Source of the DNA: Betaproteobacteria bacterium
Lineage (GTDB): Bacteria > Bdellovibrionota_B > Oligoflexia > Silvanigrellales > Silvanigrellaceae
Reading direction: 5' to 3'
Length of the DNA stretch: 64,000 bases
Assembly (NCBI GenBank): GCA_016868315.1
Contig: VGHE01000002.1
Location: 186,001 to 250,000, forward strand
In this document: one piece after another, positions 25,965-42,374 of the stretch
Numbering within the stretch: position 1 is the first letter of the stretch
Layout of the letters: each line of letters opens with the position of its first letter
The notes under the pieces: model-generated
What the model was told of the DNA's origin: nothing
Seen by the model: the letters and a program-made list of their open reading frames with translations, nothing else
The model's database searches: none
Made by a program: the position numbers and the translations under genes

Positions 25965-27730
25965 GGAAGAGTGCTCCGCTCAAATGCATCAAGCTTCTGC
26001 TGGAGTGCTGTTTCCATTTTCTGCACGGCAGACTCTGCGGCTGTGCCAGAGAAATGTTTCAGGAAGAGGGAAGTCGCAGATTTGAGCCAGAGCGCCTCTG
26101 TGAGGGAAAACGCTGCGGTGGTTGCTGCGGCTGGCTGCTCTTGGCGCTGAGCCAGCCCGTTTGCAAGCTGCACAATGCGCCCGCGCAAATACGGACTGGG
26201 CATCACACTTCGCTCAGCAGTAATAAGCGCGGCAAGAACTTGTGCATGGTCGCGCAATGGCAATTCCTGTCCTGCCGATTCGCTCGACACCAGTGTCCAT
26301 GGTGTTGCGGGAGAATCAGCTTCTTGTGCAACGCGCGCTCGAAGATGTTCGGCAAGAAGTGTCTGGACAATGAGTTGTGCTCCCCGTTGCAAGGCTCGAG
26401 GCGCGGCTTTGAGTTGCGAAGTTGTCTCAGATGAGACTTGTAAATCATTCACGTTGCTCAGCTCCTGGCTCCACTCACTTAGCGCGAGTAACAGAGTGCT
26501 GAGCGCCTGCGGATTCGCTTTGCTACGTATAGCTTGCGACACGACACCCACCTGTGCACCGATCAGTGCCCCCTGAATCGCCCGGGTATTTTCATCGATG
26601 AATCTTCCCCCAAGTAAGGAGTCGATTCCTGGCAACACGAGGAGTGCAATTTGGTAACCTTCATCAGGAAGCAACGTTCCAGGTAGATAATATTGCGAGA
26701 AGATCCCACGATTTGCAGGTCGAAGCCGATGCAGCATGCGTGCGGCAGTCCACCATTGCAAAGCCTGCTCGACAAGTGGAACAGGGGTATTGCGCCAGCT
26801 CCACTTTTCTCCACCAAAACGTGCGAGCGAGAGCGAATTGTTGCTCGGCAGAGTCAGGTCGAGGAAGCCTGTGAGGAAGCGCACTTGATTGAACGGTTGG
26901 CGTGGGTCGAATGCTCCCGGGTTGATGATTTGGAGATCGACGGGGAGTGTGAGGCCACCCCATTGGTTTCCTTTGCCATCACCACCTAATCCAAAAAGAT
27001 ACTCGCCCTCGGCCAGAACCCGGAGCAGTTCAAGCCAAAGGTAGCCCTTGTCTGTGCTTGTATTACGCAGGTTCGACCACGGTCCACCTTGGGAAAACAC
27101 AAGAGCCCATCGGCTCCACACATCAGCCAATTGAGTCCATCGGCCGGCGTTCAATTCCTTGGTTCCGGGGAGTGGCACAAAGGCATCGAGGTGCAATCGC
27201 GGAGCTCCTGACGCAGGGCTCCAGTCTTTCTCAACCACATTGATTTTTGCCAACAATGCTTTGCTAACTTCATCGGCAACTGTCACTTCATCCGCAAAAA
27301 TTCCACCAACAATGTTGTCGATGGGGCGAGGCACGATTTCGAGGATCTTCAACTTGGGGTTACCGAGGATTTCGGTGCGAATAGCAGGAGTCAGTGCCTG
27401 TGGCAGCGCACCCCGGTTTGTGTTCAATGAAGTTGTCAGAGACGTTTGCAGAGCCGGCAAACAATCGCAAACAGCCAGTGCAAACCAAGCATCAACGAGC
27501 GATGCATCAGGAATCTTCTTGGTCAACTCGGTGCGCTCGGACAGCGGCACGTAACTACCAAGAACGAGCTGTTGTGGCAGCGCTTGAGCATCACCCGAGG
27601 GTGGCTGCGCTGGAATCTGGCTGGGCTGCTGTGGCGCGCTGGCAGGCTTTTTTACACACGCTGCGCCGAAGAGAAACATCGCAAGTGTTCCTCGCAACCA
27701 CAGCCTGTTTTTTCGCCTTGACTTGCTCAT
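25961..27730 (-). CDS. large lipoprotein of unknown function
   Basis: A 589-residue protein with a signal sequence ending in FGAAC (lipidated Cys25) and a Pro/Gln-rich linker after it. The mature part is mostly helical, with a pair of close Cys (AVCDCLP) near residue 100 and several Trp-rich segments (WSRWALVF, WSWRNTP, WWTAARML). No family recognised. It is the first of three translationally coupled genes; the second encodes a barrel-like protein and the third an IRG-like GTPase, suggesting that the lipoprotein works at the outer membrane with the barrel. A TCCGATAC element at 27782-27789 (minus) lies upstream but lacks a clear -35. Confidence 0.65.
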   Translation of the reverse strand: MSKSRRKNRLWLRGTLAMFLFGAACVKKPASAPQQPSQIPAQPPSGDAQALPQQLVLGSYVPLSERTELTKKIPDASLVDAWFALAVCDCLPALQTSLTTSLNTNRGALPQALTPAIRTEILGNPKLKILEIVPRPIDNIVGGIFADEVTVADEVSKALLAKINVVEKDWSPASGAPRLHLDAFVPLPGTKELNAGRWTQLADVWSRWALVFSQGGPWSNLRNTSTDKGYLWLELLRVLAEGEYLFGLGGDGKGNQWGGLTLPVDLQIINPGAFDPRQPFNQVRFLTGFLDLTLPSNNSLSLARFGGEKWSWRNTPVPLVEQALQWWTAARMLHRLRPANRGIFSQYYLPGTLLPDEGYQIALLVLPGIDSLLGGRFIDENTRAIQGALIGAQVGVVSQAIRSKANPQALSTLLLALSEWSQELSNVNDLQVSSETTSQLKAAPRALQRGAQLIVQTLLAEHLRARVAQEADSPATPWTLVSSESAGQELPLRDHAQVLAALITAERSVMPSPYLRGRIVQLANGLAQRQEQPAAATTAAFSLTEALWLKSATSLFLKHFSGTAAESAVQKMETALQQKLDAFERSTLP

Positions 27731-27875
27731 CCCCTGCAGGGCTCCCTCGACTTAAGCCAAAGAATTGCTCCGTCGGCGGAGGTATCGGAGTGACTGGCAT
27801 GGAACGAGATGGGCAGGATTTACCGAGCCAGCTGCTGACTGCTTGCGGATGATTAAAGCCCTGCGGTCGGCGGAT

Positions 27876-28862
27876 TCAGCCCTGCGTGCGGACGATTTCA
27901 CCGCAGATGAATGCGCCATTCACTTCTTTCATAAGTTGTGGAGCGAGTTTGGAATCGACCACAAAAACGTATCCAAGACCCATGTTCCAGACAGTGAAGG
28001 CCTCATCTTCAGCAATGTTCCCAGCCTCGGCGATATACCGAATGACTGGAGGGCAGGGGATGGCAGATTTGTCGATCCGGTAGCCGAATCCGTGCGGTAG
28101 CACTCTTTGAATGTTGCGCAGACCGCCACCAGTGATGTGTGCCATGGCTTTGATTTCCACCTTCGTGAGAAGGGACTGCACGGTGCGCGGATACAAAGCT
28201 GTGGGGTGCGTCAGTGCCTCTCCAAGAGTCTGTCCGCGCAGAAGATCAGGTCGCGCGCGGAGATCAAGGTTTTTGTCGGCAATGATTTTGCGCACCAGTG
28301 AGAAGCCATTTGCATGGAATCCTGTACTCGGTAGGCCGATGAGAACATCGCCCTCGCAAACACCATGACCATCAATGAGAGCTGCGCGGTGCACCTCGCC
28401 AACAGCAAAGCCTGCAATATCGAATTTGGGTGGCTGATAGAATCCCGGCATTTCGGCGGTTTCGCCGCCGAGTAAAACACAGCCACTCGCTCGGCATGCC
28501 TTTTGAATGCCATGAATCACGCGGTGAGCCTGTTCTACATCGAGCTTGCCGCACGCAAAATAATCGAGAAAAAACAGCGGGCGTGCACCACAAACGATGA
28601 GATCGTTGACGCTCATGGCGACAAGGTCTTGTCCGAGATCTTCGAGACGATCCATCTGCAAACTCAGTTCGATTTTCGTTCCGACACCGTCTGTGCATCC
28701 GACGAGGAAGCGTTCGTCGTCGAGAGGAAACAAACCTGCAAATCCACCAATGGTGGGATTGGTCGCACGGATCTTTTCAACCAGTTCTTCACCGGCAGCA
28801 ATGTCAACTCCGGCACGTGTGTAGGCAGGCGCAAGCGGTTGGCTGTTGGTGTGCTGTGTCAT
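27876..28862 (-). CDS. purM: phosphoribosylformylglycinamidine cyclo-ligase (AIR synthetase)
   Basis: A 328-residue enzyme that closes the imidazole ring: FGAM + ATP gives AIR. Marks of the family are YTRAGVDIAAGEELVEKI at the start, VGCTDGVGTKI, VNDLIVCGARPLFFLDY, GGETAEMPGFY and AHITGGGLRNIQRVLP. The length is slightly shorter than E. coli PurM (345). It is the last gene of the purine operon, coupled to purN by ATGA. No obvious terminator follows in the 145 bases before the next gene. Confidence 0.95.
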   Translation of the reverse strand: MTQHTNSQPLAPAYTRAGVDIAAGEELVEKIRATNPTIGGFAGLFPLDDERFLVGCTDGVGTKIELSLQMDRLEDLGQDLVAMSVNDLIVCGARPLFFLDYFACGKLDVEQAHRVIHGIQKACRASGCVLLGGETAEMPGFYQPPKFDIAGFAVGEVHRAALIDGHGVCEGDVLIGLPSTGFHANGFSLVRKIIADKNLDLRARPDLLRGQTLGEALTHPTALYPRTVQSLLTKVEIKAMAHITGGGLRNIQRVLPHGFGYRIDKSAIPCPPVIRYIAEAGNIAEDEAFTVWNMGLGYVFVVDSKLAPQLMKEVNGAFICGEIVRTQG

Positions 28863-29431
28863 TGGCGAAGTCTCCTTGAAAGTAAATCGACAGATTCAAG
28901 AACGGCAGACACTTCATGGGGGTGTGCCCGCTCGCGCAAAGTTTCGAAAGAGTCGGTCGGGTAAAGGGGAAGGGTGCGGTAGGCCAGCAATGGCCCTTCG
29001 TCGAGACGCGCTGTCACTTGATGCACACTGATACCCCAGAGAGGCGCGCGGTTGCGCAATGCATGTAGCAATCCGTGAGCACCTTTGTATTGGCTCAATG
29101 GTGCTGGGTGCAGATTTGCAATCTCTGCGCGTGGCCAAAGCGCGCGCACCTGCCTCAAAAAATCATCCGAGAGCACGCGCATGTAGCCAAGCAGCAGGAT
29201 GATTTCAAAAGGTTCACAAAGTTTGAGTTGCGCGAGCAGTGCTTGCTCGTGCGCCTGGCGCGAGGGGTAAGCTGCGTGTGGAATACAATGCTCTTTGACT
29301 CCCAGGGTTCTGGCTTTATTGCGCACGGGAGCGTTCTCAACATTGGTGATCATGTCTGTCACCAGATGCCCGAGAACTCTTGTCATGGCAGCAAAGGTTC
29401 GACCTTCACCACTGCAAAGAGAAACGATCAT
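28859..29431 (-). CDS. purN: phosphoribosylglycinamide formyltransferase (folate-dependent)
   Basis: A 190-residue GAR transformylase using 10-formyl-THF. The catalytic Asn-x-His appears in IANLHPAPLSQYKG, the Asp in TARLDEGPLLA, and the folate-site region GYMRVLSDDFL is recognisable. The N-terminus, SLCSGEGRTF, replaces the usual SGNGSN loop. It overlaps purCD and purM by ATGA on both sides. Because it needs GAR, made by the adjacent PurD half of the fusion, the gene order follows the pathway closely. Confidence 0.9.
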   Translation of the reverse strand: MIVSLCSGEGRTFAAMTRVLGHLVTDMITNVENAPVRNKARTLGVKEHCIPHAAYPSRQAHEQALLAQLKLCEPFEIILLLGYMRVLSDDFLRQVRALWPRAEIANLHPAPLSQYKGAHGLLHALRNRAPLWGISVHQVTARLDEGPLLAYRTLPLYPTDSFETLRERAHPHEVSAVLESVDLLSRRLRQ

Positions 29432-31836
29432 TGCACCGCATCCACCTCATGGAATCCCGGAAAAGAAATGTCAGTTCGATAGTGCGGATGAACCGCGTGG
29501 GCATCTTTGAAGGAAATCTGCGCGAGTGCGGCATAGGCATGCGCCACTGCGTGCTCCTCTGTGTTTGCAGCTGCTAACACTCCCGCAATTCGGCCGGCAC
29601 GCGTTGAGTTGTTGGCATCCACTCCCGAAGGAATCCACGTCGTGTTTGCAGGCCAGGCGCTCGGAAGTGCAAGCGTGCGTTGCGGAGCATAACCCTCGGG
29701 GTACTCCGGAGACGCAACAACAACGAAACAACGTTTTAATCCATCGTGCTTCAGGCGATGCGGCGCCGCAGGGTTGAGCCAGGGGTTTGCAGCCCACGGT
29801 TCATTTTTCGCAGTCAGCCACATGCCGACAATCAGGTCGCGCCCAAGGCCAGGCAAAATGACTTGTGATTCCGGATCGCCCATGCGGCAATTGTATTCCA
29901 GAACCTGAGCATTTCCCTGACCATCAAGCATCAGCCCGGCAAACAAAAAGCCACGGTAATGCGTACCGGTATTCTTCAATTCTTTCAGGGTCTGTTTGAA
30001 GATTGTGTGGACCTGCGTTTCAAGAGACTCAGGCAATGACACGGGGCACACTGCACCCATGCCTCCGGTGTTTGGTCCGGTTTGTTGGTTGTTGCGCCGC
30101 TTAAAATCCTGCGCGAAGGGCAGCAAAACGTAATCTTCACCATGGCACAAGGCGATGGCAGAGATCTCTTTGCCTGGCAGCAAGCGCTCCACCAGAAATT
30201 GAGCCTCTCCGGTTTCCCGGGTGTAGGTTCGAACAGGTAATGTTTCGAGTTCGCGCATCCAGCCTGGAAGGTTTGATTCAAAGTGCGCGACGGCTGAACG
30301 GAGATCATCCTCGTTCATCACCAAACACACGCCTTTACCCGAGGCAAGCGACTCATATTTCAAGACGTAGGGAAAGCGCTGTAGTATCTCGGCGTGCGCA
30401 TTCTTAGCAGTTGGCAAAGCCGATTTTTTGAGTTCTTCCCAGCCGATCATCCAGGCTTCAGGTGTTGGGCAATGAGCCTGGTTGAGGATTTTCTTGGTGT
30501 GAATTTTTGAAACCTCAAGCCTGACCCCCTCGAGATCGGGAGCCAAGCAATGAATTCCAGCCTCGCGCAGTTGCTCGGCAAGACCCTGGGCAATCGGCAT
30601 CTCTGGTCCAAAGACGGCCCAGCCGATGTTCTCTCGGCAGCATTTTTCAATCAGATTCTTGCTACTCAATGCGCCCAAGCTGAGTTTTTTCTCCCCGTTC
30701 CAGCTTTCGCGCCCCGGCCAGCAATACACCACATCCACTTCAGGCTGACGCTCGAGCAGTTGAGCGAGAGTGTAGTCGCGGCCACCACTGCCGACCACAA
30801 GCACCCTTGCAGGAAGCCGCTGCTGAGCTTCACTGCGGCGCATCTGACCGGGGTCAACGGGCCAGGGAATGAGGTGAGGTGCGACCAAATCCCAAGGCTT
30901 CATTTGCGGGAAGAGTCGCTCAAAAAGAAGCTGATAACGCTGCGCAGTACCTTGGGCGAGTGCGTGAGTGAAATTGCTGTCAGCCCATATCGAATTTAGG
31001 ACAAATGGGAGGTTGTTGTCCGATTGCACTGCGCTGGATGTGCGCTTTGAAAGCGCTGCTTGAACCTCCTCACGCAGCCACTCTTTCGAGTAGTGCTCGA
31101 TGCGTCCTTGCTCAAAGGCTTTCAGGTCTACGAAGCGTGATGCATCAGGGGTGTGGATTTCATCGACCAGCATGAGCTGGCCTTTTTCATCGAGCCCAAA
31201 CTCGTACTTGGTGTCCATGAGAAGTAAATTTGCTTCTGAGCACAGCTGTTGACCCCTCAGGAAGAGTTTCTGCGCCGTTGTGGCAAGACCACGTATGAGT
31301 TCCTGTGCTTGTTTCTCTGCTTCCACATGCGCACACAGATCGTTCTCGTTCAACCATTGTTGCACATGCATACAGGCTTGTGCTGGGGTGACGAGTTCAT
31401 CGTGACCATACGCGGCTTTGGTTGTGAAAGTCACCAGAGGTTCAGCGAAGCGGTGGTATTGTTGCAATCCTTCAGGAAGCTCGATACCCCACTTACTTTT
31501 GATTTCAGCAGCACCTCCTTTCTGGTAGCTGCGCCAAAGACTTCCTGCCAATACCCCGCGTGCAATCACCTCAAGCGGCAGAACGCGTCCCGATTTTACA
31601 AGCATGCTTTGTGCATCGAGACAGCCAAGAAAATGGTTGGGGATGATGTCACGTGTGTTTGCAAAGAAGAACACCGACATGGCCTGCAGAATATGGCCTT
31701 TATTTTCAATTTCCAGGGGAAGAACACTATCAAAAGCCGACACGCGGTGTGTGGAGGTCAGAATACGTTGCGTTGAATGGATTGCAGTATTGATGCGAAC
31801 TTTCCCGAATTGGACTGCAAAAAGCGACGTATTCAT
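29428..31836 (-). CDS. bifunctional PurC-PurD fusion: SAICAR synthetase / GAR synthetase
   Basis: An 802-residue fusion. Residues 1-~310 are SAICAR synthetase (PurC, step CAIR + Asp): STHRVSAFDSVLP, LEVIARGVLAGSLW, LMDTKYEFG and LVDEIHTPDASRF. Residues ~343-802 are GAR synthetase (PurD, phosphoribosylamine + glycine), an ATP-grasp enzyme: VLVVGSGGRDYTLAQ, FGPEMPIAQGLAEQL, YVLKYESLASGKGV, TGGMGAVCP and EYNCRMGDPESQVILP. PurD proteins normally read GSGGREHAL at the start; here RE-H is RD-Y. The two activities are non-consecutive steps, so channelling is not obvious. Coupled by ATGA to pyrF upstream and purN downstream. Confidence 0.9.
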   Translation of the reverse strand: MNTSLFAVQFGKVRINTAIHSTQRILTSTHRVSAFDSVLPLEIENKGHILQAMSVFFFANTRDIIPNHFLGCLDAQSMLVKSGRVLPLEVIARGVLAGSLWRSYQKGGAAEIKSKWGIELPEGLQQYHRFAEPLVTFTTKAAYGHDELVTPAQACMHVQQWLNENDLCAHVEAEKQAQELIRGLATTAQKLFLRGQQLCSEANLLLMDTKYEFGLDEKGQLMLVDEIHTPDASRFVDLKAFEQGRIEHYSKEWLREEVQAALSKRTSSAVQSDNNLPFVLNSIWADSNFTHALAQGTAQRYQLLFERLFPQMKPWDLVAPHLIPWPVDPGQMRRSEAQQRLPARVLVVGSGGRDYTLAQLLERQPEVDVVYCWPGRESWNGEKKLSLGALSSKNLIEKCCRENIGWAVFGPEMPIAQGLAEQLREAGIHCLAPDLEGVRLEVSKIHTKKILNQAHCPTPEAWMIGWEELKKSALPTAKNAHAEILQRFPYVLKYESLASGKGVCLVMNEDDLRSAVAHFESNLPGWMRELETLPVRTYTRETGEAQFLVERLLPGKEISAIALCHGEDYVLLPFAQDFKRRNNQQTGPNTGGMGAVCPVSLPESLETQVHTIFKQTLKELKNTGTHYRGFLFAGLMLDGQGNAQVLEYNCRMGDPESQVILPGLGRDLIVGMWLTAKNEPWAANPWLNPAAPHRLKHDGLKRCFVVVASPEYPEGYAPQRTLALPSAWPANTTWIPSGVDANNSTRAGRIAGVLAAANTEEHAVAHAYAALAQISFKDAHAVHPHYRTDISFPGFHEVDAVQ

Positions 31837-32669
31837 GAGGGTCTCCGAGCTTGTGAAGTCAAAGAGTCGAGTTCAGTCTGCATGGATTCGAATCGCTGCT
31901 TCATTTCCATGGGCTTGATGTTTCCGCCCTCACAAATGCTGCGGCTGACAGGAAAAATAATGTCTTGTGCCAGCTCACGGGTCAGAGCCGTTGCCTGTGC
32001 GAGTGTGACGCCCTGTGCACCGACACCCGGCATCAGCAGGGGCGAGGTGTTTTTCTTAAAAATAGGATGCGCAAGCGCATCAGCTCGATTCGCACCAACA
32101 ACAAGCCCGATGTGCGGCGCGAGGGCTCCGCTCGGGTCGAGTGCCAGATGGGTTTCGGCACAGGCCTCGGCGATCTCGGCATAACTCTGTCCGAAGGCTG
32201 AAAGTTTGTTTTGTGGATACTCACTGGTGGCGCCCAGCACGAAAACTCGTGCAGTTTCACCACGCATGCTCAGTGCCTTTTGGAGTGAGGAACCAATAAT
32301 GTGCTCTCCCATGAAGGGGTTCACAGTGATGCCATCGACGCAAAGATGGTCAAACGCAAATTCAAGATACTGGTTGAGGCTGTTGCCAATCTCGCCAAAC
32401 TTGCCATCGAGAAGAACCTTTGTGTGAGGCGACAATAGCTCGCAGGCGTGTTCGAGCTTGTCCATTCCCAGGCGCCCCCAACGAATAAAGAAGGCGAGGT
32501 TGATTTTCACCCAGTGTGGTTTGGTTTCAAGAAGATCGAAGAGCTCGACGTGGTTCTCATAGCAATCGAGCCAATCCTTTAAAAGTCCCGACTTGGGCAT
32601 CGGGTCAACGCCCAAGCACAAAATACGGTTTCGACTTTTTCCAGATACTTGAGTTGTTGGCAGATTCAT
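31833..32669 (-). CDS. pyrF: orotidine 5'-phosphate decarboxylase family protein
   Basis: A 278-residue TIM-barrel protein of the OMP decarboxylase family, type 2-like by length. It keeps LCLGVDPMP at the first strand, KINLAFFIRWG, and PLLMPGVGAQG near the phosphate-binding end. The catalytic strand reads LLDGKFGEIGNS: the canonical pattern is D-x-K-x-x-D, and the last Asp, supplied to the neighbouring subunit's active site, is Glu here. It is embedded between purK and purCD with ATGA overlaps on both sides, the only pyrimidine gene in the purine operon. Either the Glu is tolerated or the protein has changed function. Confidence 0.8.
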   Translation of the reverse strand: MNLPTTQVSGKSRNRILCLGVDPMPKSGLLKDWLDCYENHVELFDLLETKPHWVKINLAFFIRWGRLGMDKLEHACELLSPHTKVLLDGKFGEIGNSLNQYLEFAFDHLCVDGITVNPFMGEHIIGSSLQKALSMRGETARVFVLGATSEYPQNKLSAFGQSYAEIAEACAETHLALDPSGALAPHIGLVVGANRADALAHPIFKKNTSPLLMPGVGAQGVTLAQATALTRELAQDIIFPVSRSICEGGNIKPMEMKQRFESMQTELDSLTSQARRPS

Positions 32670-33892
32670 GTGGAGGAGCCTCGCGGTTCGGAAGGGAATG
32701 TGGAGCGGAGAGACGCGATGGTCTTCAGGTTTTGTTCAGCATCGTTCGCATTCAGGATGACGTGACCCATCTTTCGGCCGGCACGAGCCTCCTTCTTTCC
32801 GTAAAGGAGAGCTTCACATACGCTCCTGTGGCTCAGAAGCTGGCTCGGCCAGGAGACGGTTTTTTCAAAATCATTTGTCTGCAGCCAGAGGTTACCTAGG
32901 GTGTTCCACATTGCCCACGATCGATGGGGTTGAATGGGTTCAGTTTTGAGGGGCAAATCAAGAAGAATTTGAGCGAGGATGTCGAACTGACTGCGGGTCA
33001 TTGCACGGCGCGTCACATGTCCAGAGTTGTGAGGCCGTGGGGCAACCTCATTGACCAAGATACGCGTTTGAGAGTTTACATCAACGATAAAAAACTCAAC
33101 GCACAATAGACCACGAACGTCCCATTGTTCAGCAATGTTCAGTGCGATTTTGCGCGCTTCATTTGCCCATTCGTTTGGGACTCGCGCTGGAAAAAGAGTT
33201 GTATCGAGAATGCCTGCGTGGTGAATGTTTTCGAATGCGGGAAAAACACACGTTCCGAGCTCGGGATGGCGCCCGACAATAATGCTGATTTCCATGCGCA
33301 GGTCGCACATTTCTTCCAACACCATGGGAAAGAGAAGTTGCTTTCCTGCAAGATAATCGAGTGCTTCGATCCAGTCCTTTTCACTGGAGAGTCGCCATTG
33401 CCCTTTGCCGTCGTAACCGCCAGTAGCTGTTTTAAGAATGGTCGCTTTGCGGTTGCTCAACCAAAAATCCTTCTCACGCTCAAGGTCGGTGCACGATTGA
33501 ATTTCTCTCCACTCAGCGAGCGGAGCGCATGCGGCAGCAAGTGCCTTTTTTTCAGATATTCGGTTTTGTGCGTATTCCAGAACGCTCACTGACGGCCATA
33601 GTTTGCCTGCGTCTTCTTTGTTTTGCAGCACGGTGCGGAGAGCCGCAGTGGGGATGTGCTCGAACTCATAGGTGACACGATCGCAGCGATTGAAAAATGC
33701 GTGCAAGGCGTCCACGTCATCAAAACGTGCGCGGGTGACAAACGGAGTTTGCAAAGCAGCGGGGGCATTCTCGGTGGGTTCGAGAATAATTACATCGGCT
33801 CCAAGTGCCGTAAGAGCATGCGACAACATCAGCCCCAACTGTCCGGCGCCGAGAATTCCGATGGTTTTGGGGCGCTGTGGCAGGCCGCTCAT
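32666..33892 (-). CDS. purK: N5-carboxyaminoimidazole ribonucleotide synthetase
   Basis: A 408-residue ATP-grasp enzyme converting AIR + bicarbonate + ATP to N5-CAIR. The start TIGILGAGQLGLMLSHAL is diagnostic, as are the ATP-grasp stretch ILKTATGGYDGKGQW, CDLRMEISIIVGRH, and RGLLCVEFFIV with NEVAPRPHNSGHVT. An in-frame ATG at 34114 would add 74 unrelated residues inside purE, so the start at 33892 is used, leaving 4 bases to the end of purE. PurE and PurK act in sequence and are adjacent, as in many bacteria. Confidence 0.93.
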   Translation of the reverse strand: MSGLPQRPKTIGILGAGQLGLMLSHALTALGADVIILEPTENAPAALQTPFVTRARFDDVDALHAFFNRCDRVTYEFEHIPTAALRTVLQNKEDAGKLWPSVSVLEYAQNRISEKKALAAACAPLAEWREIQSCTDLEREKDFWLSNRKATILKTATGGYDGKGQWRLSSEKDWIEALDYLAGKQLLFPMVLEEMCDLRMEISIIVGRHPELGTCVFPAFENIHHAGILDTTLFPARVPNEWANEARKIALNIAEQWDVRGLLCVEFFIVDVNSQTRILVNEVAPRPHNSGHVTRRAMTRSQFDILAQILLDLPLKTEPIQPHRSWAMWNTLGNLWLQTNDFEKTVSWPSQLLSHRSVCEALLYGKKEARAGRKMGHVILNANDAEQNLKTIASLRSTFPSEPRGSST

Positions 33893-33896
33893 GGCT

Positions 33897-34463
33897 TCAT
33901 TTCTCCCAGCGGAGGGGATGACCGCTTTGTGCTTCCACCTGTGTTGCTTGTTCCAATGCTTCGCTCTCGATGGCTTGCTTGTGCTGTTCAATCCAGCGCG
34001 CAATGGGTTCGGATTGGAGTGCAAGAATCTGTAAAGCAAACAAACCGGCATTGCGTGCGCCAGCCGTACCAATGGCGAAGGTTGCCGTTGGAACACCGCC
34101 AGGCATTTGAACAATGGAGAGCAGGCTATCGAGTCCTTGGAGTGATTTCGATTGAACCGGCACGCCGAGAACGGGAAGCGCAGTGAGGCTTGCGATCATG
34201 CCGGGCAGGTGCGCAGCCCCTCCTGCTCCCGCAACAATAACCTTCAAACCACGAGCTGCAGCAGTGCGGGCGTATTGAAAAAGCCTCTCCGGAGTGCGGT
34301 GAGCGCTGACCACTGTGCATTCATATGGCACACCACAATCGTTGAGCACCGCCAGTGTTGCACTCATGGTTTCGTAATCAGACGCACTGCCCATGACCAC
34401 ACCCACAACGGCTGCAGAGTGGGGCGTTCCTACTGAGGTCGAGTGATTGCTTTGAGAGACCAT
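33897..34463 (-). CDS. purE: N5-CAIR mutase, class I
   Basis: A 188-residue class I PurE, which moves the carboxyl group of N5-CAIR to carbon 4 (CAIR). Family marks are [43 protein letters not shown] and [16 protein letters not shown]. The ATG at 34463 has GGGAGG in front of it; a longer in-frame start at 34664 lies in purF and is rejected. It lies 4 bases after purF and 4 bases before purK. Confidence 0.95.
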
Positions 34464-34467
34464 GCTC

Positions 34468-35922
34468 TTAACCTCCCACCAATGCATTGGGCTCTTCACG
34501 CAGACGCCGCTGTGCAAAGTTGTCGGAGTAGCAGCCGCTGAAGCATGAGTCGCACAAGCCGCTGCCTCCTTCGCTTGTCCGCTGCTTCTGCGGAGCCATC
34601 TGATGTAATGTATCGATAGATAGATATGCCAGTGAGTCGACCTGCAGTTCTTCGCGCATTTCACTCAGAGACATTTGCTGAGCAAGCAGTTCACGGCGCT
34701 TGGGAGTATCGATGCCGTAAAAACAAGGAAACTTCACGGGGGGTGAACCAATCCGCATGTGAACCTCTTTCGCACCAGCTTCACGCAGCAACTCGACAAT
34801 CCGGCGCGAAGTCGTGCCGCGCACGATACTGTCGTCCACCACAACAAGTCGTTTGCCTTCAATAACGTGACGCAGTGGGCTTAATTTGAGGCGCAGACGA
34901 AAATTGCGGATGGTTTGGGTCGGTTCAATAAAAGTGCGTCCGACATAGTGATTGCGGATGAGACCCACGGCATAAGGAAGTTTTGAGGCACGGGCGTATC
35001 CCATGGCCATGGGTACACCGGAATCGGGAATGGGGATCACCAGGTCGGCATCAACAGGTGCCTGCGCTGCGAGTTTCTCACCCAGTGTTTCACGAAACAA
35101 AAATGTCGACTGTCCCCACAAATAAGAATCTGGTCGGGCAAAGTAGATGTGCTCGAAGACGCAGCGGCGTGGCTCCGATTGTGCCAGCGAACGCACCTGC
35201 GGCAGGACGTGCGTGCTGCACTTGCCCGTAGCAAGTTCTATTTCAATCAATTCACCCGGCAGAATGTCGCGTTCGAAACGCGCATTGACCAACTCGAACG
35301 AGCAGGTTTCACTTGCCACCACCCAGCACTCGGGCGCGTCTCCGAGGAAAGATTGCGGTTCATGATTGAACTTAGCAAGAGAGAGTGGTCGGTATCCGAG
35401 AGCATCCACACAGGCATACAGGTGGGTTTGAGTCATGAGCACAAGAGTAAACGCTCCTTCGAGCAATCCACTGATGTGTTTAAGCTTGGCACCCATGTCT
35501 GCACCGGGAGCCTGAGCCAACAGATGCAGGATGATTTCAGTGTCAGCGGTGCCCTGGAAAATTGCACCCCGACGCTCCAGATCCTCGCGCAGTTCAGGCG
35601 CGTTAACCAAGTTGCCGTTGTGGGCAAGCGCAACATGCTGGCCATTGACCCGTGCTGCCAAGGGTTGAATATTTGCACGAGCGTCGCCACCCGCGGTGCT
35701 GTAGCGCACATGACCCAGTGCAGCTGTTCCGGGTAATCGCGATAGAATATCGGGGCTGAAGATATCAGCCACCAGCCCAACGTCGCGGTGAACCGTGATC
35801 TGTCCTTTGTGCAGGGTCGAGAGTCCAGCACTTTCCTGACCGCGATGTTGAAGCGCGAACAGGCCAAGAAAAGCCATGTGGGCTGCTTCTCGATGATGGG
35901 TCAGTGCAAAAATTCCACACAT
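34468..35922 (-). CDS. purF: amidophosphoribosyltransferase
   Basis: A 484-residue enzyme of the first committed purine step: PRPP + glutamine gives phosphoribosylamine. The product starts MCGIFAL, placing the nucleophile Cys at position 2 with no propeptide. The glutaminase domain contains HRGQESAGL and [10 protein letters not shown]; the PRPP loop is [15 protein letters not shown]. Cys residues in [27 protein letters not shown] and [13 protein letters not shown] match the positions of the 4Fe-4S ligands in the Bacillus-type enzyme, so this PurF may carry an iron-sulfur cluster. An ATG at 36021 would overlap purL by 92 bases and displace Cys2, so 35922 is used. Confidence 0.94.
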
Positions 35923-35929
35923 GTTCTGT

Positions 35930-38428
35930 TCACTCGAAAAAGGGTTTGAGAGAGTCGGAACAAGCGCGATGGATTTTGTCCCAAACGCCATGTTCTTCTT
36001 TTGTAAGCGCAGCGGGAGCAATCATCTTCCCGATTTCGATGGCTTCGAGATTGCTTTGTTCGACAATTGCAGCAAAGCGTGTGTCCGTTTGCGGCGATGA
36101 TTGGAGGCTCACAAGCACACCAGTCTGTCCTTCGGCGCAACACTCGTGAAGGCTCATGTTTAAAGCCTTTTCATTCCAAGCAAAGGCAAATCCGCTGCGC
36201 GCTGCGAGAGAGAGTACGGTGTTGAGGAGACCACCCACACCCACGTTGGAGCACGCTGCAAGGAGTTGAGCAGAACGCAACAGAGAGAGAGCACTCCAGA
36301 GCTTTTGCTCGTGCTCGAAATCAACCTCAGGAACTGGTCCAGCATTAAGCCTGAAGATGTTCCACGCCCACTCAGAGTATTCGAAACGCGAAAGACGCGC
36401 GATGTCTTTGTCACGTAGCCAGTAAACCCGAGCGTTGAGGGCATGGTTCTCTTCAATGAGCTCAGTTGCTCTGTCGAGAACTCCAACCATACCCACCATG
36501 GGGGTCGGTGGAATAGGGGTTTGTCCGGTCTGGTTGTTGAGACTGACGTTACCGCTCACAATGGGAATACGCATGGTTTTGGCAACCGAGTTGATCCCGT
36601 CGATCGCATCTGAGATTTGTCGCATCACTGCAGGTTGGCGAGGGCTGCCGAAGTTGAGGCAATCGGTCATGGCGAGTGGACGTCCACCACTCGCTGCAAT
36701 CCGGCGCCCGAGCTGCAGTGTGCTTTGAGCCGAGCCATTGAGAGGGTCGATTTCAATCCAGCGCTCTTGGCAGCCAGCCACAAGTGCAATGGCAGGGACT
36801 GACTCGGCACGAGGATCTTGTTTCATGTTGAGTGCACAATAGGCATCGTCGAGGCGCACGACTGCCGCAGCAGAACGGCGTGGGGTTTGACAACCTGCCA
36901 GAGTGTTGCCCTGAACCGTGGAACAGTAATGACGGGTCAATGGATCTTTTGAGACGTTTGCGGGCAATGCAAACCAGTCTGGCAGAAGTGGGAAAATTTC
37001 TTTCCAGGCTTCTGCGAGTGTGGTCTGATTTGATTCAAACAATTGCGCCAGCGTTTGTCGCGTGGGTTCGGGCAAACTGAGTTGCAGTGTTTGTTTCGCA
37101 GAGACGCCTCCTGGCGGAGTGGATGATGCACTGCACGGCTGGCTGCGGTTTTCAATCCGGGCATGATCTTTCAAATAAGCACTTCGATCTTGGAGAGGCC
37201 AAGTATATTTTGGTGCATTCTCGGTGAGGACATCGACCGGCAATGCGCATGCAACAGTATCGTTGTGGATGCAGATGAACTCACCGGTGTTGTTGACGGA
37301 ACCAATGATTGCCGCTGCAACCTGATGCTTTTTGCAGAGCTCGAGCACAGCCTGTGCTTTTTCCGGAGTCACAGCACAAAGCATCCGCTCCTGTGACTCT
37401 GAGAGAAGATATTCATATGCTTTTAAACGCGCGGTGCGGGCAGGAATTAAATTCAAGTCAAGTGCAACACCACAGCCGGAGCGTCCGGCCATTTCAACGC
37501 CGCTGGATGTGAGGCCTGCGGCTCCCATGTCCTGCAAACCGACGCAGAGTTTTTGGTCGAGTAGCTCGAGAGTCACCTCAAGCAGTTTCTTCTCGGCAAA
37601 AGGGTCGCCCACTTGCACTGTGGGTTTGAGGGTTGCGGAAGAGTCGTCAAAAGTGTCCGAGCTCATCGTTGCACCGTGTACACCGTCACGTCCTGTTGCG
37701 CTGCCGAAATAGAGAAGCAGGTTGGCGCCGTCCGGAAATAGCTCTTCACGCTTGGCGTGTGTCAGAGCAGTTCCGGGAATCAAGCCACTCGGCTTTTGGG
37801 TACCCGTCGGGGTGTTCTCGTTTTGTAGCTTGCCGCGGAAGATGCCGTCGGCTTTCACCAGTCCGGCTGTGAATGCATTAACAAGGATATTCTTGCTGTA
37901 GCCAGAATGGAATCGGGTTTGCCCACCCACAGTGGGTACGCCCACGGAGTTTCCATAATCGCCAATCCCACGCACGGTGTGTTTGAGAAGGTGAGCATTG
38001 TATTCGCCCTCGCCGTAGCGCAAGCAATTGAGATTTGCGACTGGCCTAGCACCCATGCAGAATACATCGCGCAAAATTCCGCCCACGCCTGTGGCTGCGC
38101 CTTGGTAGGGCTCTATGTAACTGGGGTGGTTGTGGCTCTCCATTTTGAAAGCAAGACCCACTCCAGGTGCGATTTCGACGATACCGGCATTTTCACCGGG
38201 TCCCTGAAGAACCCAGCTTTCCTGTGTGTGGAATCGCGCCAGGTGGACGCGTGAAGATTTGTAGGAGCAATGTTCACTCCACAGAGCACCCGCAACAGCA
38301 ATTTCTTCGAGCGAAGGGGCGCGTTTCAGGCATTCTTTGAGGCGCGCGAATTCTTCGGCCGAAAGTCCGAAGCCCTGAGCCAATTCGCGCCATTTTTTAT
38401 CATCAGCAGATTCGTGAGCGACTGTCAT
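35930..38428 (-). CDS. purL: phosphoribosylformylglycinamidine synthase, large subunit (small-type PurL)
   Basis: An 832-residue PurL that makes FGAM from FGAR, ATP and ammonia from PurQ. It is the small type (B. subtilis 742 residues) requiring separate PurQ and PurS. Marks include LWSEHCSYKSSR, MESHNHPSYIEPYQGAATGV, GVPTVGGQTRF, GLQDMGAAGLTSSGVEMA and TDCLNFGSP. About 90 extra residues sit mainly in an insert around residues 420-540. A TTG at 38458 that overlaps the purQ stop is possible, but the ATG at 38428 has GAGGA about 10 bases before it and fits the family start better. Confidence 0.94.
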   Translation of the reverse strand: MTVAHESADDKKWRELAQGFGLSAEEFARLKECLKRAPSLEEIAVAGALWSEHCSYKSSRVHLARFHTQESWVLQGPGENAGIVEIAPGVGLAFKMESHNHPSYIEPYQGAATGVGGILRDVFCMGARPVANLNCLRYGEGEYNAHLLKHTVRGIGDYGNSVGVPTVGGQTRFHSGYSKNILVNAFTAGLVKADGIFRGKLQNENTPTGTQKPSGLIPGTALTHAKREELFPDGANLLLYFGSATGRDGVHGATMSSDTFDDSSATLKPTVQVGDPFAEKKLLEVTLELLDQKLCVGLQDMGAAGLTSSGVEMAGRSGCGVALDLNLIPARTARLKAYEYLLSESQERMLCAVTPEKAQAVLELCKKHQVAAAIIGSVNNTGEFICIHNDTVACALPVDVLTENAPKYTWPLQDRSAYLKDHARIENRSQPCSASSTPPGGVSAKQTLQLSLPEPTRQTLAQLFESNQTTLAEAWKEIFPLLPDWFALPANVSKDPLTRHYCSTVQGNTLAGCQTPRRSAAAVVRLDDAYCALNMKQDPRAESVPAIALVAGCQERWIEIDPLNGSAQSTLQLGRRIAASGGRPLAMTDCLNFGSPRQPAVMRQISDAIDGINSVAKTMRIPIVSGNVSLNNQTGQTPIPPTPMVGMVGVLDRATELIEENHALNARVYWLRDKDIARLSRFEYSEWAWNIFRLNAGPVPEVDFEHEQKLWSALSLLRSAQLLAACSNVGVGGLLNTVLSLAARSGFAFAWNEKALNMSLHECCAEGQTGVLVSLQSSPQTDTRFAAIVEQSNLEAIEIGKMIAPAALTKEEHGVWDKIHRACSDSLKPFFE

Positions 38429-38454
38429 GGACGGTGGTTCCTCGGAGTCGATGT

Positions 38455-39192
38455 TCAACGGTTTTTTTCTTTGTGAGTGCTCCGCCAGATCGCCAGCGGA
38501 CTGCCGGTGCGCACAACAATTCCGAGATGCCGCGCCAGCGCATCGAGCATGTAAAGCCCATCGGTTGCTCCCAGGAGTGGATCACTCGCACGCTCGGGAT
38601 GAGGCATCATGCCGACGATGTTGCCCTCGGGATTGGTGATACCTGCGATGCTCTCAAAGCTGCCTAGCAGATTGTGCGTGTAGCGAAACAGGATGTTGTA
38701 CGCATCGTTCTTGCGGGGTGCGACGAAATTTCCCATGCCACAGGAGATGGGCAGGTTCAGGAGGCGTCCACTTTCCACGATGCTTGGGCTCCAGGGTGAG
38801 ACGACCTGGGTTTCCACGTGGACAGTGACAAACTCATGGACGTGCTGACGCACAATGTTGGGCGCTAACGCGCCAGGCAGCAATCCGGACTCACACAGGA
38901 TCTGGAAGCCATTGCAGATTCCCAGAACGGCGACGCCACGGCTCGCTTGAAGGCGCACCCAATCCATCAGAGGCGACCGTGCCGCAAGTGCGCCAGCACG
39001 GAGATAGTCACCAAATGAAAACCCCCCGGGCAACACGATCACGGAGGTGTCGCCAGGGGGGAGTCGTTCTACGTCGTCGCGCGAGCGCACAAGCTGGACG
39101 TCGAGTTCAAGGTTCCTCGACAACCATCGCACGGTGTCGTGGTCGCAGTTGGTTCCGGGAAATTGAACTATGGCAGCAGTTCTTCTGGTCAT
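38455..39192 (-). CDS. purQ: phosphoribosylformylglycinamidine synthase, glutaminase subunit
   Basis: A 245-residue class I glutamine amidotransferase feeding ammonia to PurL. The triad is visible: Cys in LGICNGFQIL, and His and Glu in GMMPHPERASD. VQFPGTNCDHDT at the start and LPGGFSFGDYLRAGA are typical of PurQ. The start overlaps the purBS stop by ATGA. Together with the PurS domain of the upstream fusion and PurL downstream, all three parts of the FGAM synthase complex are made from adjacent reading frames. Confidence 0.95.
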   Translation of the reverse strand: MTRRTAAIVQFPGTNCDHDTVRWLSRNLELDVQLVRSRDDVERLPPGDTSVIVLPGGFSFGDYLRAGALAARSPLMDWVRLQASRGVAVLGICNGFQILCESGLLPGALAPNIVRQHVHEFVTVHVETQVVSPWSPSIVESGRLLNLPISCGMGNFVAPRKNDAYNILFRYTHNLLGSFESIAGITNPEGNIVGMMPHPERASDPLLGATDGLYMLDALARHLGIVVRTGSPLAIWRSTHKEKNR

Positions 39193-40799
39193 TGAATGAC
39201 CTCCACCTCAATGGATTCCATGACCTCATTGCGGAGCACAGATGAGACATAACGTAACAGAGCGTCTTTTTCATCAGGCTGGGGCAGACTGATGGTAAAC
39301 ACTTTTGAACGCTTGAGACGTGCTTGCAGTCCCTGGTTCGCCATGTGTTCTTCGATCGTCTTGGCCTCAGTATCCAAGACATCGGTGTGAAGTGCCACGG
39401 TCACTTTGTAGGTCGTCTGGAGTGCTGGCACGGAACTGGTGCAGACCTGCCCTGAATGTATGCGAGTGACTTCTTCCGGGGTGGTTCCGAACACCTGCAG
39501 GAATCGAGCTGGCGTATGAGCCATGAAGCGGTCGAGGTTAAACAAACCTTTCAGCGTTTCGCGGCCGAGCAATTCGACCACAGCTGAGTGACCTTCGAGT
39601 GCACACAGGAAGGCATCTGCAGATTGGTTTTCCCGCGCAGCTTGAGCACTCAGAGGAAGAGCAATTCTCTGCACGAGTTCGTATGCCTCCGTGCGGTTCA
39701 TGCCTGCGTTGGTGAGTTGTGTGAGAACGCTTTGGCTCGCCCAAAGTCCGCCAAGCCGATCGAGATTGCGCTTCATGACATCCGGCTGAACGACCATCTG
39801 CTCGATCAGCTGAGCGCAGCGCGCTGTCATGAAGTCGAGTGTGACAAACAGGTCAGGCAGCGCCATGCGTTCAACGCTGCTGTGTGAAATGTCGCGCTCG
39901 TGCCAGAGGCTGGTATTCTGTGAAAGCATGTTGACGTAGCCACGCACTGCTCGTGCGAGGCCGCAGAGATTTTCAGCAAGCACAGGATTCTTCTTGTGCG
40001 GCATGGCTGAACTGCCCTTTTGCTTTGAGCCAAAAGGCTCAAGCACTTCTTGGAGCTCAGTGCGCGCCCAGTGCCGCATGTTGGTTGCAAAACGGTCGAT
40101 GGCATTGGCGAGATTTTCGCAGGCGTGCGCAGCGACAAGAATACGGTCGCGTGGAATCACCTGGGTCGCGATAGGCTCAGCGCGCAAGCCAAGTTTGCCG
40201 AGCACATGGCTCTCGTATTCAGGCGTGAGCTGTGAATACTGCCCAACAGCGCCGGAGAGTTTTCCGGTGCGGCAGATTTTTTGAGCTTCAATCAATGCGA
40301 GATGCGCGCGCTGGAATTCTTCAAAGTGTCCTGCAAGCACTTGCCCGAACGACAGTGGCTCCGCATGAATTCCGTGCGTGCGTCCCATGATGGGTGTCTG
40401 GACGTAGGCGAATGCTTTCTTCGCCAAGTCGACACGAAGCTGTCTGAGGGGGCGCGAGAGCAGCTCCAGAGACTCGCAAACGCGCAGGCTAAGTGCAGTG
40501 TCGAGCACGTCAGAGCTCGTTAGTCCTTGGTGCAGCCAGCGGCCAAAATCACCCATTGCGGCGCCCACTTCAGCAACGTAGGCAATCACATCGTGTCCAG
40601 TTTCCTGTTCGCGACGCGCGTAGTCTTCGCTTCCTGTTGTGCGGATTGCGTTGTCGAAGGCGTTCAGAACAGAGGGATTCAGGCCGCGCCTTTCGACCAG
40701 GCCTTCGAGGTGAGCTCGTTCGACACGTGACCAAGAGGCGTATTTTGCCTCCTCAGACCACAGTTGGGACATCACCGGGCGGCTGTAACGCGCAATCAT
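39189..40799 (-). CDS. PurB-PurS fusion: adenylosuccinate lyase with C-terminal FGAM synthase PurS domain
   Basis: A 536-residue fusion. Residues 1-~450 are adenylosuccinate lyase (PurB), which releases fumarate from SAICAR and from adenylosuccinate: TSSDVLDTALSLR, GRTHGIHAEPLSFGQ and the signature GSSAMPHKKNP. Residues 462-536 look like a complete PurS: TYKVTVALHTDVLDTEAKTI, a short helix, KVFTISLP and a final helix and strand with EVMESIEVEVIQ. PurS (~80 residues) normally is a free small protein that docks PurQ onto PurL. No free purS gene lies between purBS and purQ, where it would be expected. The start has GAGGTGA before the ATG. First gene of the operon. Confidence 0.88.
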   Translation of the reverse strand: MIARYSRPVMSQLWSEEAKYASWSRVERAHLEGLVERRGLNPSVLNAFDNAIRTTGSEDYARREQETGHDVIAYVAEVGAAMGDFGRWLHQGLTSSDVLDTALSLRVCESLELLSRPLRQLRVDLAKKAFAYVQTPIMGRTHGIHAEPLSFGQVLAGHFEEFQRAHLALIEAQKICRTGKLSGAVGQYSQLTPEYESHVLGKLGLRAEPIATQVIPRDRILVAAHACENLANAIDRFATNMRHWARTELQEVLEPFGSKQKGSSAMPHKKNPVLAENLCGLARAVRGYVNMLSQNTSLWHERDISHSSVERMALPDLFVTLDFMTARCAQLIEQMVVQPDVMKRNLDRLGGLWASQSVLTQLTNAGMNRTEAYELVQRIALPLSAQAARENQSADAFLCALEGHSAVVELLGRETLKGLFNLDRFMAHTPARFLQVFGTTPEEVTRIHSGQVCTSSVPALQTTYKVTVALHTDVLDTEAKTIEEHMANQGLQARLKRSKVFTISLPQPDEKDALLRYVSSVLRNEVMESIEVEVIQ

Positions 40800-40860
40800 A
40801 GGGTCACCTCACGAGTAGGGGCAATTTCGGGTGAGAGTCATACTTTTGCGAAACGCCCCT

Positions 40861-40890
40861 CTCATAGTCCGTAATCCATAAATATGACAA
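40861..40890 (-). promoter_or_regulatory. candidate sigma-70 promoter of the purine operon
   Basis: On the minus strand, TTGTCA (40890-40885) and TATGAG (40866-40861) are 18 bases apart, about 60 bases before the purBS start. The leader between them and the gene holds an inverted repeat AGGGGC/GCCCCT (40817-40822 with 40855-40860). Confidence 0.45.
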
Positions 40891-40965
40891 GCCCCTGGGA
40901 AAGCGTGGGGCGAGAATCGTGGTGGGGTGGTGTCAGCCTTTTCGACACGGCCCTGCAGACCCATC

Positions 40966-40992
40966 TAAAGTTGCCACTGCGCACTCCGATAC
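40966..40992 (+). promoter_or_regulatory. sigma-28 (FliA)-type promoter of the HD-GYP gene
   Basis: TAAAGTTG (40966-40973), exactly 11 bases, then TCCGATAC (40985-40992). The known flagellar sigma-28 consensus is TAAAGTTT-N11-GCCGATAA, so 7 of 8 and 6 of 8 positions match. It lies 74 bases before the HD-GYP ATG. Confidence 0.65.
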
Positions 40993-41066
40993 AGCTTTGA
41001 ATAGTGAAATTCCCGAAAACACTGTGTTCGGGAGCTTCCGTGAGCTTGGGAGAACAGAGGATACCG

Positions 41067-42374
41067 ATGGCTTTGAAGAAGCAAAATCCGGTAAATCAGG
41101 ATGTTGAGGATTCAATTGACTACCTCAACCTGCTGGTGACTTCTGGGCTGGCGCTGGGCGAGGTGGCCGATTCCGATGAGTTACTCAATATGATGGCCGA
41201 AACGGCCATGAACATGGGCAACTGCGAGGGCTGCACGGTCTACGAAGCAGACGAAGGGCTGCTGAGGTTCCGCCTCACCCGCAACCGGGTTTTGGAATCG
41301 CGCGGAGTTAAGGCACCTCTTAAAAACTACACAGTTCCAATTGACCTGAAAACAGCTGCAGGCTTTGTGGCGACATCCAAAAAGCCGCTCAACATTCCTG
41401 ACGTGTACAATCTGCCCCCGGAATCGCCGTTTTCCTTTAACCCATCGTTTGATGTGATGACCAACTATCGCAGTCGGTCGATGTTGGTGATTCCCATGTG
41501 TGACTCACGTGGTAATGTGCTCGGCGTGCTGCAGCTCATCAACCACTTGGTGGGTGAAAACTTCAGCGGCGATGTGACTCCATTTCCGCAGCGGGTTGAA
41601 GCTTATTTGAAGGCACTTTCGAGCCAGTGCGGCGTAGTGATGCGCAATATCCGTATGGCGGAAGAGCTGAAGAAATCGCGCATCGAGACTGTTAAAAAGT
41701 TCGTGAAGGCCTCCGAGTATCACGACACAGACACGGGCGGTCACATCGAGCGTATGAGCCGCTACAGCGTGTTGTTGTACCGTGAGTTGGGATTCGATGA
41801 CTCCTCCTGTGAGGTGATGCGACTGGCGTCGATGCTTCACGATGTTGGCAAGATCTCCACGCCTGATGCCGTTTTGAAGAAACCTGGTCGACTTACGCCC
41901 GAAGAATTTGAAATCATGAAATTGCACACGGTGAAGGGATATGAGGTGCTTAGGGGCGCGGATTCACCCTTCCTCGATATGGGCGCGACTATTGCGTACA
42001 CACACCATGAAAAGTGGGACGGCTCGGGCTATCCGCGTAAACTCAAGGGCGAAGACATTCCACCAGAGGGTCGGGTCGTGGCTCTCGCTGATGTGTTTGA
42101 TGCGCTGTGCTCGCGGCGTGTTTACAAAGAATCATGGCCCATTGATAAGGTTTTCGAAGAACTGAGAAACTGCAGTGGCAGTCATTTTGATCCGCAGATT
42201 GTTGAAATATTTTTTGATAATCTGGATGAAATACTCGAGATCAAAGCGCAGTTCCCCGCAAGTGATCCGCCTACAACCGCGGTGCCTAGCCCCGCAGCGA
42301 AAGTCGAGGCGCAAACCGAGACCACAGCAGCTCCTGCAAGCGAAGTTCAGGCCGAAATCAAGAAGGCGTCTTGA
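41067..42374 (+). CDS. GAF-domain HD-GYP phosphodiesterase (c-di-GMP degrading)
   Basis: A 435-residue cytoplasmic protein with an N-terminal GAF sensor domain (~20-190) and a C-terminal HD-GYP domain (~210-390). Catalytic marks are EYHDTDTGGHIERMS, MLHDVGKIS, HHEKWDGSGYP (the GYP motif) and LADVFDALCSRRVY. Such proteins hydrolyse c-di-GMP to GMP or pGpG. The start at 41067 has AGAGG before it; an upstream in-frame ATG at 41004 lacks one. After the HD-GYP domain there is an Ala/Pro/Thr-rich tail of about 40 residues. A sigma-28-type promoter upstream suggests co-expression with late flagellar genes. Confidence 0.9.
   Translation: MALKKQNPVNQDVEDSIDYLNLLVTSGLALGEVADSDELLNMMAETAMNMGNCEGCTVYEADEGLLRFRLTRNRVLESRGVKAPLKNYTVPIDLKTAAGFVATSKKPLNIPDVYNLPPESPFSFNPSFDVMTNYRSRSMLVIPMCDSRGNVLGVLQLINHLVGENFSGDVTPFPQRVEAYLKALSSQCGVVMRNIRMAEELKKSRIETVKKFVKASEYHDTDTGGHIERMSRYSVLLYRELGFDDSSCEVMRLASMLHDVGKISTPDAVLKKPGRLTPEEFEIMKLHTVKGYEVLRGADSPFLDMGATIAYTHHEKWDGSGYPRKLKGEDIPPEGRVVALADVFDALCSRRVYKESWPIDKVFEELRNCSGSHFDPQIVEIFFDNLDEILEIKAQFPASDPPTTAVPSPAAKVEAQTETTAAPASEVQAEIKKAS

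Follow-up and report, generated by a model that had tools for sequence, protein, structure and literature searches.

Introduction

Small PurL, one of the two types of this FGAM synthase subunit, needs PurS, as stated in passages of two papers (PMC3815217, PMC3261824). Long PurL, for example the Salmonella enzyme (1t3t), carries PurS function on its own chain, and a passage in one of these papers matches its N-terminal domain to a PurS dimer (PMC3815217). Structures of free PurS include B. subtilis 1t4a/1twj and T. maritima 3d54, the latter a PurLQS complex with six PurS, three PurL, and three PurQ chains, a ratio of 2:1:1. PurB, the adenylosuccinate lyase, is a homotetramer.

Purine-enzyme fusions as such are well known and include eukaryotic GART and PAICS. 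Archaeal PurN-PurH1 is a further case, given in a passage of PMC3261824. The new part here is PurB-PurS, for which no prior report was found in the literature searched, most subscription papers and the domain-architecture databases lying outside that search; passages of PMC3261824, PMC10927867, and PMC3815217 describe no such fusion.

PurBS is encoded in a window of 64,000 nucleotides from a member of the Silvanigrellaceae (Oligoflexia), a family of aquatic bacteria. It is most probably one polypeptide with two jobs, serving both as the lyase and as the PurS subunit for small PurL and PurQ, and would have arisen by loss of a stop codon (probability roughly 0.9). Like the fusions named above, it places purine-pathway enzymes in one chain; it alone among them attaches a subunit without catalytic function to an enzyme that acts at a different step. 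Like long PurL, PurBS provides PurS function in cis by fusion; whereas long PurL carries PurS on its own enzyme, PurBS carries it on the enzyme of another step. It is thus a family-wide fusion, and the steps of the core pathway that it bridges are not consecutive.

The purBS gene and its PurB part

The purBS open reading frame at 39189-40799 lies on the minus strand and runs unbroken for 536 residues from an ATG start to a TGA stop, while the plus strand of the same interval meets stop codons when read. An earlier note on this DNA had proposed a PurB-PurS fusion at this position with no strand stated, and the continuous frame bears it out. The parts of the gene are as follows.

39486..40799, minus strand: PurB (adenylosuccinate lyase) part, residues 1-438; above the TIGR00928 cut-off; closest solved structure T. 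maritima PurB, E 1e-96
39417..39485, minus strand: linker, residues 439-461; matches the likely former purB-purS junction
39189..39416, minus strand: PurS domain, residues 462-536, plus stop codon; identified by Pfam PF02700, reciprocal profile matches to free PurS, and fold

PurBS passes the NCBIfam purB equivalog test (TIGR00928) with 374.7 bits against a cut-off of 326.2, and Pfam places Lyase_1 at residues 69-287 (E 4.9e-44) and ADSL_C at 351-433 (E 7.3e-11). It shares the lyase domain and the active-site loop with PurB of the B. subtilis/T. maritima type and is 37-41% identical to the T. maritima enzyme, but it has about 98 more residues at the C-terminal end. Residues H69, H90, H142, S263, S264, K269, and N271, which we take to be the catalytic residues of PurB, are invariant in 12 aligned rows. 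Mean pairwise identity across the fused rows is 68% in PurB, 56% in PurS, and 50% in the linker (here residues 434-461), the least conserved part. A promoter scan upstream of purBS yields two weak sites, and Rfam at gathering scores has no match in 27000-42000.

The operon and the purine pathway

On the minus strand, the operon reads purBS-purQ-purL-purF-purE-purK-pyrF-purCD-purN-purM. The TGA stop of purBS overlaps the purQ start by 4 bases, and 4-base overlaps recur between purQ and purL and at all joints from purK onward. The genes downstream of purBS are listed below; the names purF, purE, and purK rest on recognition and on homology to the relatives' operons and not on a profile scan.

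38455..39192, minus strand: purQ, 245 aa; NCBIfam PRK03619 222.2 bits, cut-off 212; best PDB match 3d54_D
35930..38458, minus strand: purL, small type, 842 aa; PRK01213 and TIGR01736 above cut-off
34468..36021, minus strand: purF, longest ORF, true start probably further in
33897..34664, minus strand: purE, longest ORF, domain in the final two thirds
32666..34114, minus strand: purK, longest ORF
31833..32669, minus strand: pyrF, orotidine-5'-phosphate decarboxylase; TIGR02127 122.7 bits, cut-off 110.6
29428..31836, minus strand: purC-purD fusion, 802 aa (PurC about 3-269, PurD 344-792); strong E-values, below curated cut-offs
28859..29431, minus strand: purN; TIGR00639 E 9.7e-30, below the curated cut-off
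27876..28862, minus strand: purM; TIGR00878 332.7 bits, cut-off 236.35

The linker domain of PurL spans residues 27-67, and a Pfam scan finds no PurS-like part N-terminal to it; at 842 aa, the protein is of the small type, as the earlier reading had it. When the window genome, 94.8% complete with 3.24 Mb in 27 contigs, is searched with PF02700 at E <= 10, no second PurS turns up. The check for another purS that had been proposed thus leaves purBS as the only one found in this 94.8% complete genome and speaks against a separate copy. With purH on another contig and purA on a third, the pathway looks complete, and de novo purine synthesis seems within the reach of this genome.

The operon contains a second purine fusion, PurC-PurD, which joins steps 7 and 2. 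In each of the 12 PurBS-bearing family genomes, the frame that holds PurC is 778-1001 residues long, and the PurD part is confirmed in five relatives. The pyrimidine synthesis gene pyrF lies inside this purine operon, between purK and purCD.

The PurS domain

PF02700 matches PurBS at residues 464-534 over profile positions 2-77 of 77, with E 3.1e-07 and 30.9 bits against a cut-off of 22.2. A profile built from fused PurS only matches free PurS of other bacteria with E down to 3.6e-12. All its rows at E <1 sit at the PurS of a locus except L065, a 91-residue ORF near a PurB. The fused PurS rows on their own also match solved PurS structures (best E 2.7e-5).

A model of the PurS domain, made from an alignment of 11 fused and 34 free PurS rows, has a pLDDT of 91. 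Its ten best PDB matches in Foldseek are all PurS, and it superposes on T. maritima PurLQS chain 3d54_B with a TM of 0.80 and an rmsd of 1.9. In the full-length PurBS model, the PurS blocks have a pLDDT of 60-75 and the domain arrangement carries no confidence; the Foldseek and VIA lists for this model are full of lyases, and the PurS part is thus outside their reach. Profile, reciprocal profile, and fold agree with the previous description of a complete PurS-like domain at the end of PurB.

Fused PurS resembles free PurS (1t4a/1twj, 3d54) in fold and motifs, including the N-x-V-x-E and D-V-L-D motifs; both are encoded directly upstream of purQ-purL, and both are paired with small PurL. Unlike free PurS, it is covalently attached to PurB and scores weakly: its Pfam score is 30.9 bits, whereas most free PurS among the matches listed reach 50-120. 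Where most free PurS have the motif LDP, 11/11 fused rows have LDT, which also occurs in a few free PurS. The weak scores and this replacement suggest that the PurS interface may have changed. The tail also misses the cut-off of the NCBIfam PurS equivalog PRK05974, with 18.9 bits against 75. We therefore call it a PurS domain that probably works like PurS and not a PRK05974 equivalog of free PurS. Naming by that model would miss PurS, and the fusion explains why annotation with the curated PurS model would report PurS missing in Silvanigrellaceae. In six computable pairs, some with near-saturated dS, the PurS part has a dN/dS of 0.04-0.18, which indicates purifying selection on this domain.

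Conservation in Silvanigrellaceae

Among the 14 family genomes, 12 have a PurS match above the cut-off, in each case in a frame of 512-574 aa that also holds PurB. Two of the 12 copies are near copies of each other (G009 and G010), and the copy in G005 has lost its start at a contig end. Identity to the whole window PurBS ranges from 85% down to 56% across the relatives, and purQ and purL come after purBS in 12/12 (11 relatives and the window). PurB-PurS is thus a real, conserved gene fusion. Its recurrence in 12/14 genomes means that it is not a chance event, and an assembly error is ruled out by the 12 genomes, which include the named isolate Fluviispira multicolorata.

The two family members without a PurS match serve as natural controls. 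G004 also has no PurB of the PurBS type, and its PurL lies in a 1090-residue frame. Near that frame is a PurC-PurE fusion (L080:991-2781, minus strand), another case of purine enzymes in one chain. Its order, SAICAR synthetase and then AIR carboxylase, is that of animal PAICS.

G013 is a reduced genome of 1.5 Mb (72% complete) that belongs to the same GTDB genus as G006-G012. Its PurB, of the PurBS type, ends 461 residues past the homologous start, at a point that aligns to PurBS residue 447-452, and contains only lyase domains by Pfam. The ORF overlaps by 4 bases the start of pyrF, named by likeness (L070), so that PurS, purQ, purL, purF, purE, and purK, which intervene in the relatives, are gone from between purB and pyrF. 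Profile searches of this 72% complete genome find no PurC, PurL linker, PurL, or PurM, while PurA is present; the joined contig is direct evidence for the deleted stretch only, and genes elsewhere may sit in the missing 28%. In the PurB tree, G013 falls among the family members and inside the fused G005 row (SH-aLRT 90), which indicates loss of the tail and not ancestral absence. Most simply read, the lineage abandoned making purines de novo, retained PurB to form AMP, and lost PurS together with the enzyme that PurS serves. Loss of PurS along with Q, L, F, E, and K while PurB stays ties the tail to FGAM synthase and not to the lyase.

Pairing of PurS with PurL across the class

The pairing of PurS and PurL was tallied in 58 genomes of the class, and the PurL linker was found in 47. 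Thirty-seven PurL frames have at most 883 residues and no PurS domain of their own; a separate PurS accompanies 37/37 of them, free in 25 and on PurB in 12. Nine frames have at least 1031 residues, with a separate PurS in 0/9. Fisher's test gives p 9e-10 for 37/0 against 0/9, uncorrected for kinship. Several small frames end at contig ends (e.g., G003, G005). Among the nine long-PurL genomes, G022 has a PurS match inside its PurL frame and G036 has a linker match below the Pfam cut-off. G055 has a 606-residue PurL frame with a weak PurS match inside. The 11 genomes lacking a linker match include two with PurS (G028, partial, and G056) and nine with none.

Origin of the fusion

In outgroup loci picked for apparent adjacency, purB and purS are separate neighbours in 13/13. 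Among the relatives of G326, the PurBS profile aligns over its full length in 9/146 genomes, with internal stop codons. In eight of these nine loci, a stop divides purB from purS, which form two ORFs that share a frame; in the ninth, the profile used did not find PurS. The separate PurBs of these relatives end at residues aligned to PurBS 437-438, and the PurBS linker would therefore correspond to the old purB-purS junction. Since purB and purS are neighbours in outgroups, often in frame with a stop between them, the loss of one stop codon is the likely origin of the fusion. The order purB-purC-purS is also common, and purC lies between purB and purS in all four such loci examined. Deletion of purC was considered as the origin, and the direct, often in-frame purB-purS neighbours make stop loss the simpler course.

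Among the matches listed, the fusion was not found outside the family. Among the best 150 of 240 matches in 383 genomes, 13 rows belong to the family (including G013, which lacks PurS), and 0/137 of the other rows enter PurS without a stop. A second survey of 146 genomes, about 100 of them common to the 383-genome set and 107 of them matched, contains none, and the best 5 of 311 records from a plasmid collection hold PurB only.

The PurL of the family groups with PurL of its class (SH-aLRT 100), so at least PurL looks native, which argues against the operon as a whole having come from outside the class. The PurB of class relatives is distant from PurBS, with 22-33% identity in partial matches; because the PurB type is unlike theirs, PurB may have been acquired later. 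The tree of PurS is too short to place its origin.

Function of the fused protein

Residues 1-438 of PurBS would act as adenylosuccinate lyase at step 8 (SAICAR to AICAR) and in the conversion of adenylosuccinate to AMP. Residues 462-536 would serve as the PurS subunit of FGAM synthase at step 4, together with the PurL and PurQ encoded directly downstream. The earlier note had held that PurBS supplies the missing FGAM-synthase subunit. This claim is supported by the sole PurS of the genome, the small PurL, and the strict pairing across the class, with further support from the PurS fold, the signs of purifying selection, and the loss of the tail with purQLFEK in G013, which keeps PurB.

By analogy with T. 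maritima PurLQS, the PurS domains of PurBS would dimerise and bind PurL and PurQ at two PurS to one PurL and one PurQ. The four PurS copies of a PurBS tetramer would then form two dimers and could hold two PurL-PurQ pairs, and a PurBS4-PurL2-PurQ2 assembly would measure about 0.47 MDa, as estimated from lengths. The lyase might plausibly be tethered to PurL-PurQ in this way with functional benefit, and a stable assembly of this kind might couple steps 4 and 8, by channelling or cross-regulation. On a cautious reading, PurBS provides the PurS function, and the coupling is only a possibility. A stronger proposal makes PurBS the core of an obligate purine metabolon, in which the tetramer presents two PurS dimers, each docking one PurL-PurQ, in one particle of about 0.47 MDa, and the AMP branch (PurB also makes AMP) could feed back on ammonia transfer in FGAM synthase; we regard it as doubtful.

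The fusion may instead be functionally neutral. Stop loss would have joined two neighbours, and PurS would serve PurL-PurQ via a flexible linker with no gain beyond equal expression. This reading is compatible with the two jobs of PurBS and denies only the coupling, and we lean slightly toward it. It draws on the adjacency of purB and purS in the 13 outgroup loci, which were chosen for adjacency, on the in-frame arrangement with a stop in 8/9 others, and on the linker being the least conserved part of the protein. In addition, purine steps 4 and 8 have no common intermediate. However, the fusion has been kept in 12/14 family genomes at identities down to 56%, and the operon contains a second purine fusion, PurC-PurD, a hint that joined enzymes are favoured here.

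Two further readings question the PurS role of the intact chain and are far less probable. Release of PurS as a free subunit, by proteolysis of the linker or from an internal start codon, would fit the small, free PurS of most bacteria and the variability of the linker. Yet no start codon occurs at a conserved linker position in 12 aligned genes, which rejects an internal start of that kind, and neither an obvious Shine-Dalgarno sequence (by eye) nor a conserved cleavage motif was noticed in the linker; release is very unlikely. The least probable reading of all is that the tail is a relic, or an oligomerisation or regulatory domain specific to PurB, with PurL working without PurS. The weak profile scores and the changed LDP motif could be taken this way, but the low dN/dS, the kept N-x-V-x-E and D-V-L-D motifs, and the strict pairing with small PurL oppose it, as does G013, where PurB has outlived the loss of precisely this tail and of purQLFEK.

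PurBS offers a handle on the old question of whether the purine enzymes of bacteria function together in an assembly. Its tether is built in and can be cut, and one reduced relative, G013, has already cut it.

Additional observations

Two pairs of family loci (L038/L041 and L037/L042) have strikingly few synonymous changes in the last 70 purBS codons, and L038/L041 also in the first 60 and last 30 purQ codons. One example is 2/50 codons against about a third elsewhere, and the window pair has no such dearth. Gene conversion or an RNA constraint at the overlaps is the question that this pattern raises.

PurB lies at the end of open frames of 885 and 748 residues at L110:4847-7501 (minus strand) and L111:2-2245 (plus strand). 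Pfam has no match in residues 1-450 of the L110 frame, a stretch that is possibly a mere open frame upstream of PurB. Among the best ~150 matches in 383 genomes, strong PurS matches lie in frames of 318 and 337 residues (G103:C19:54453-54674 and G379:C75:8863-9084, respectively), and these frames are perhaps fusions of PurS to another enzyme.
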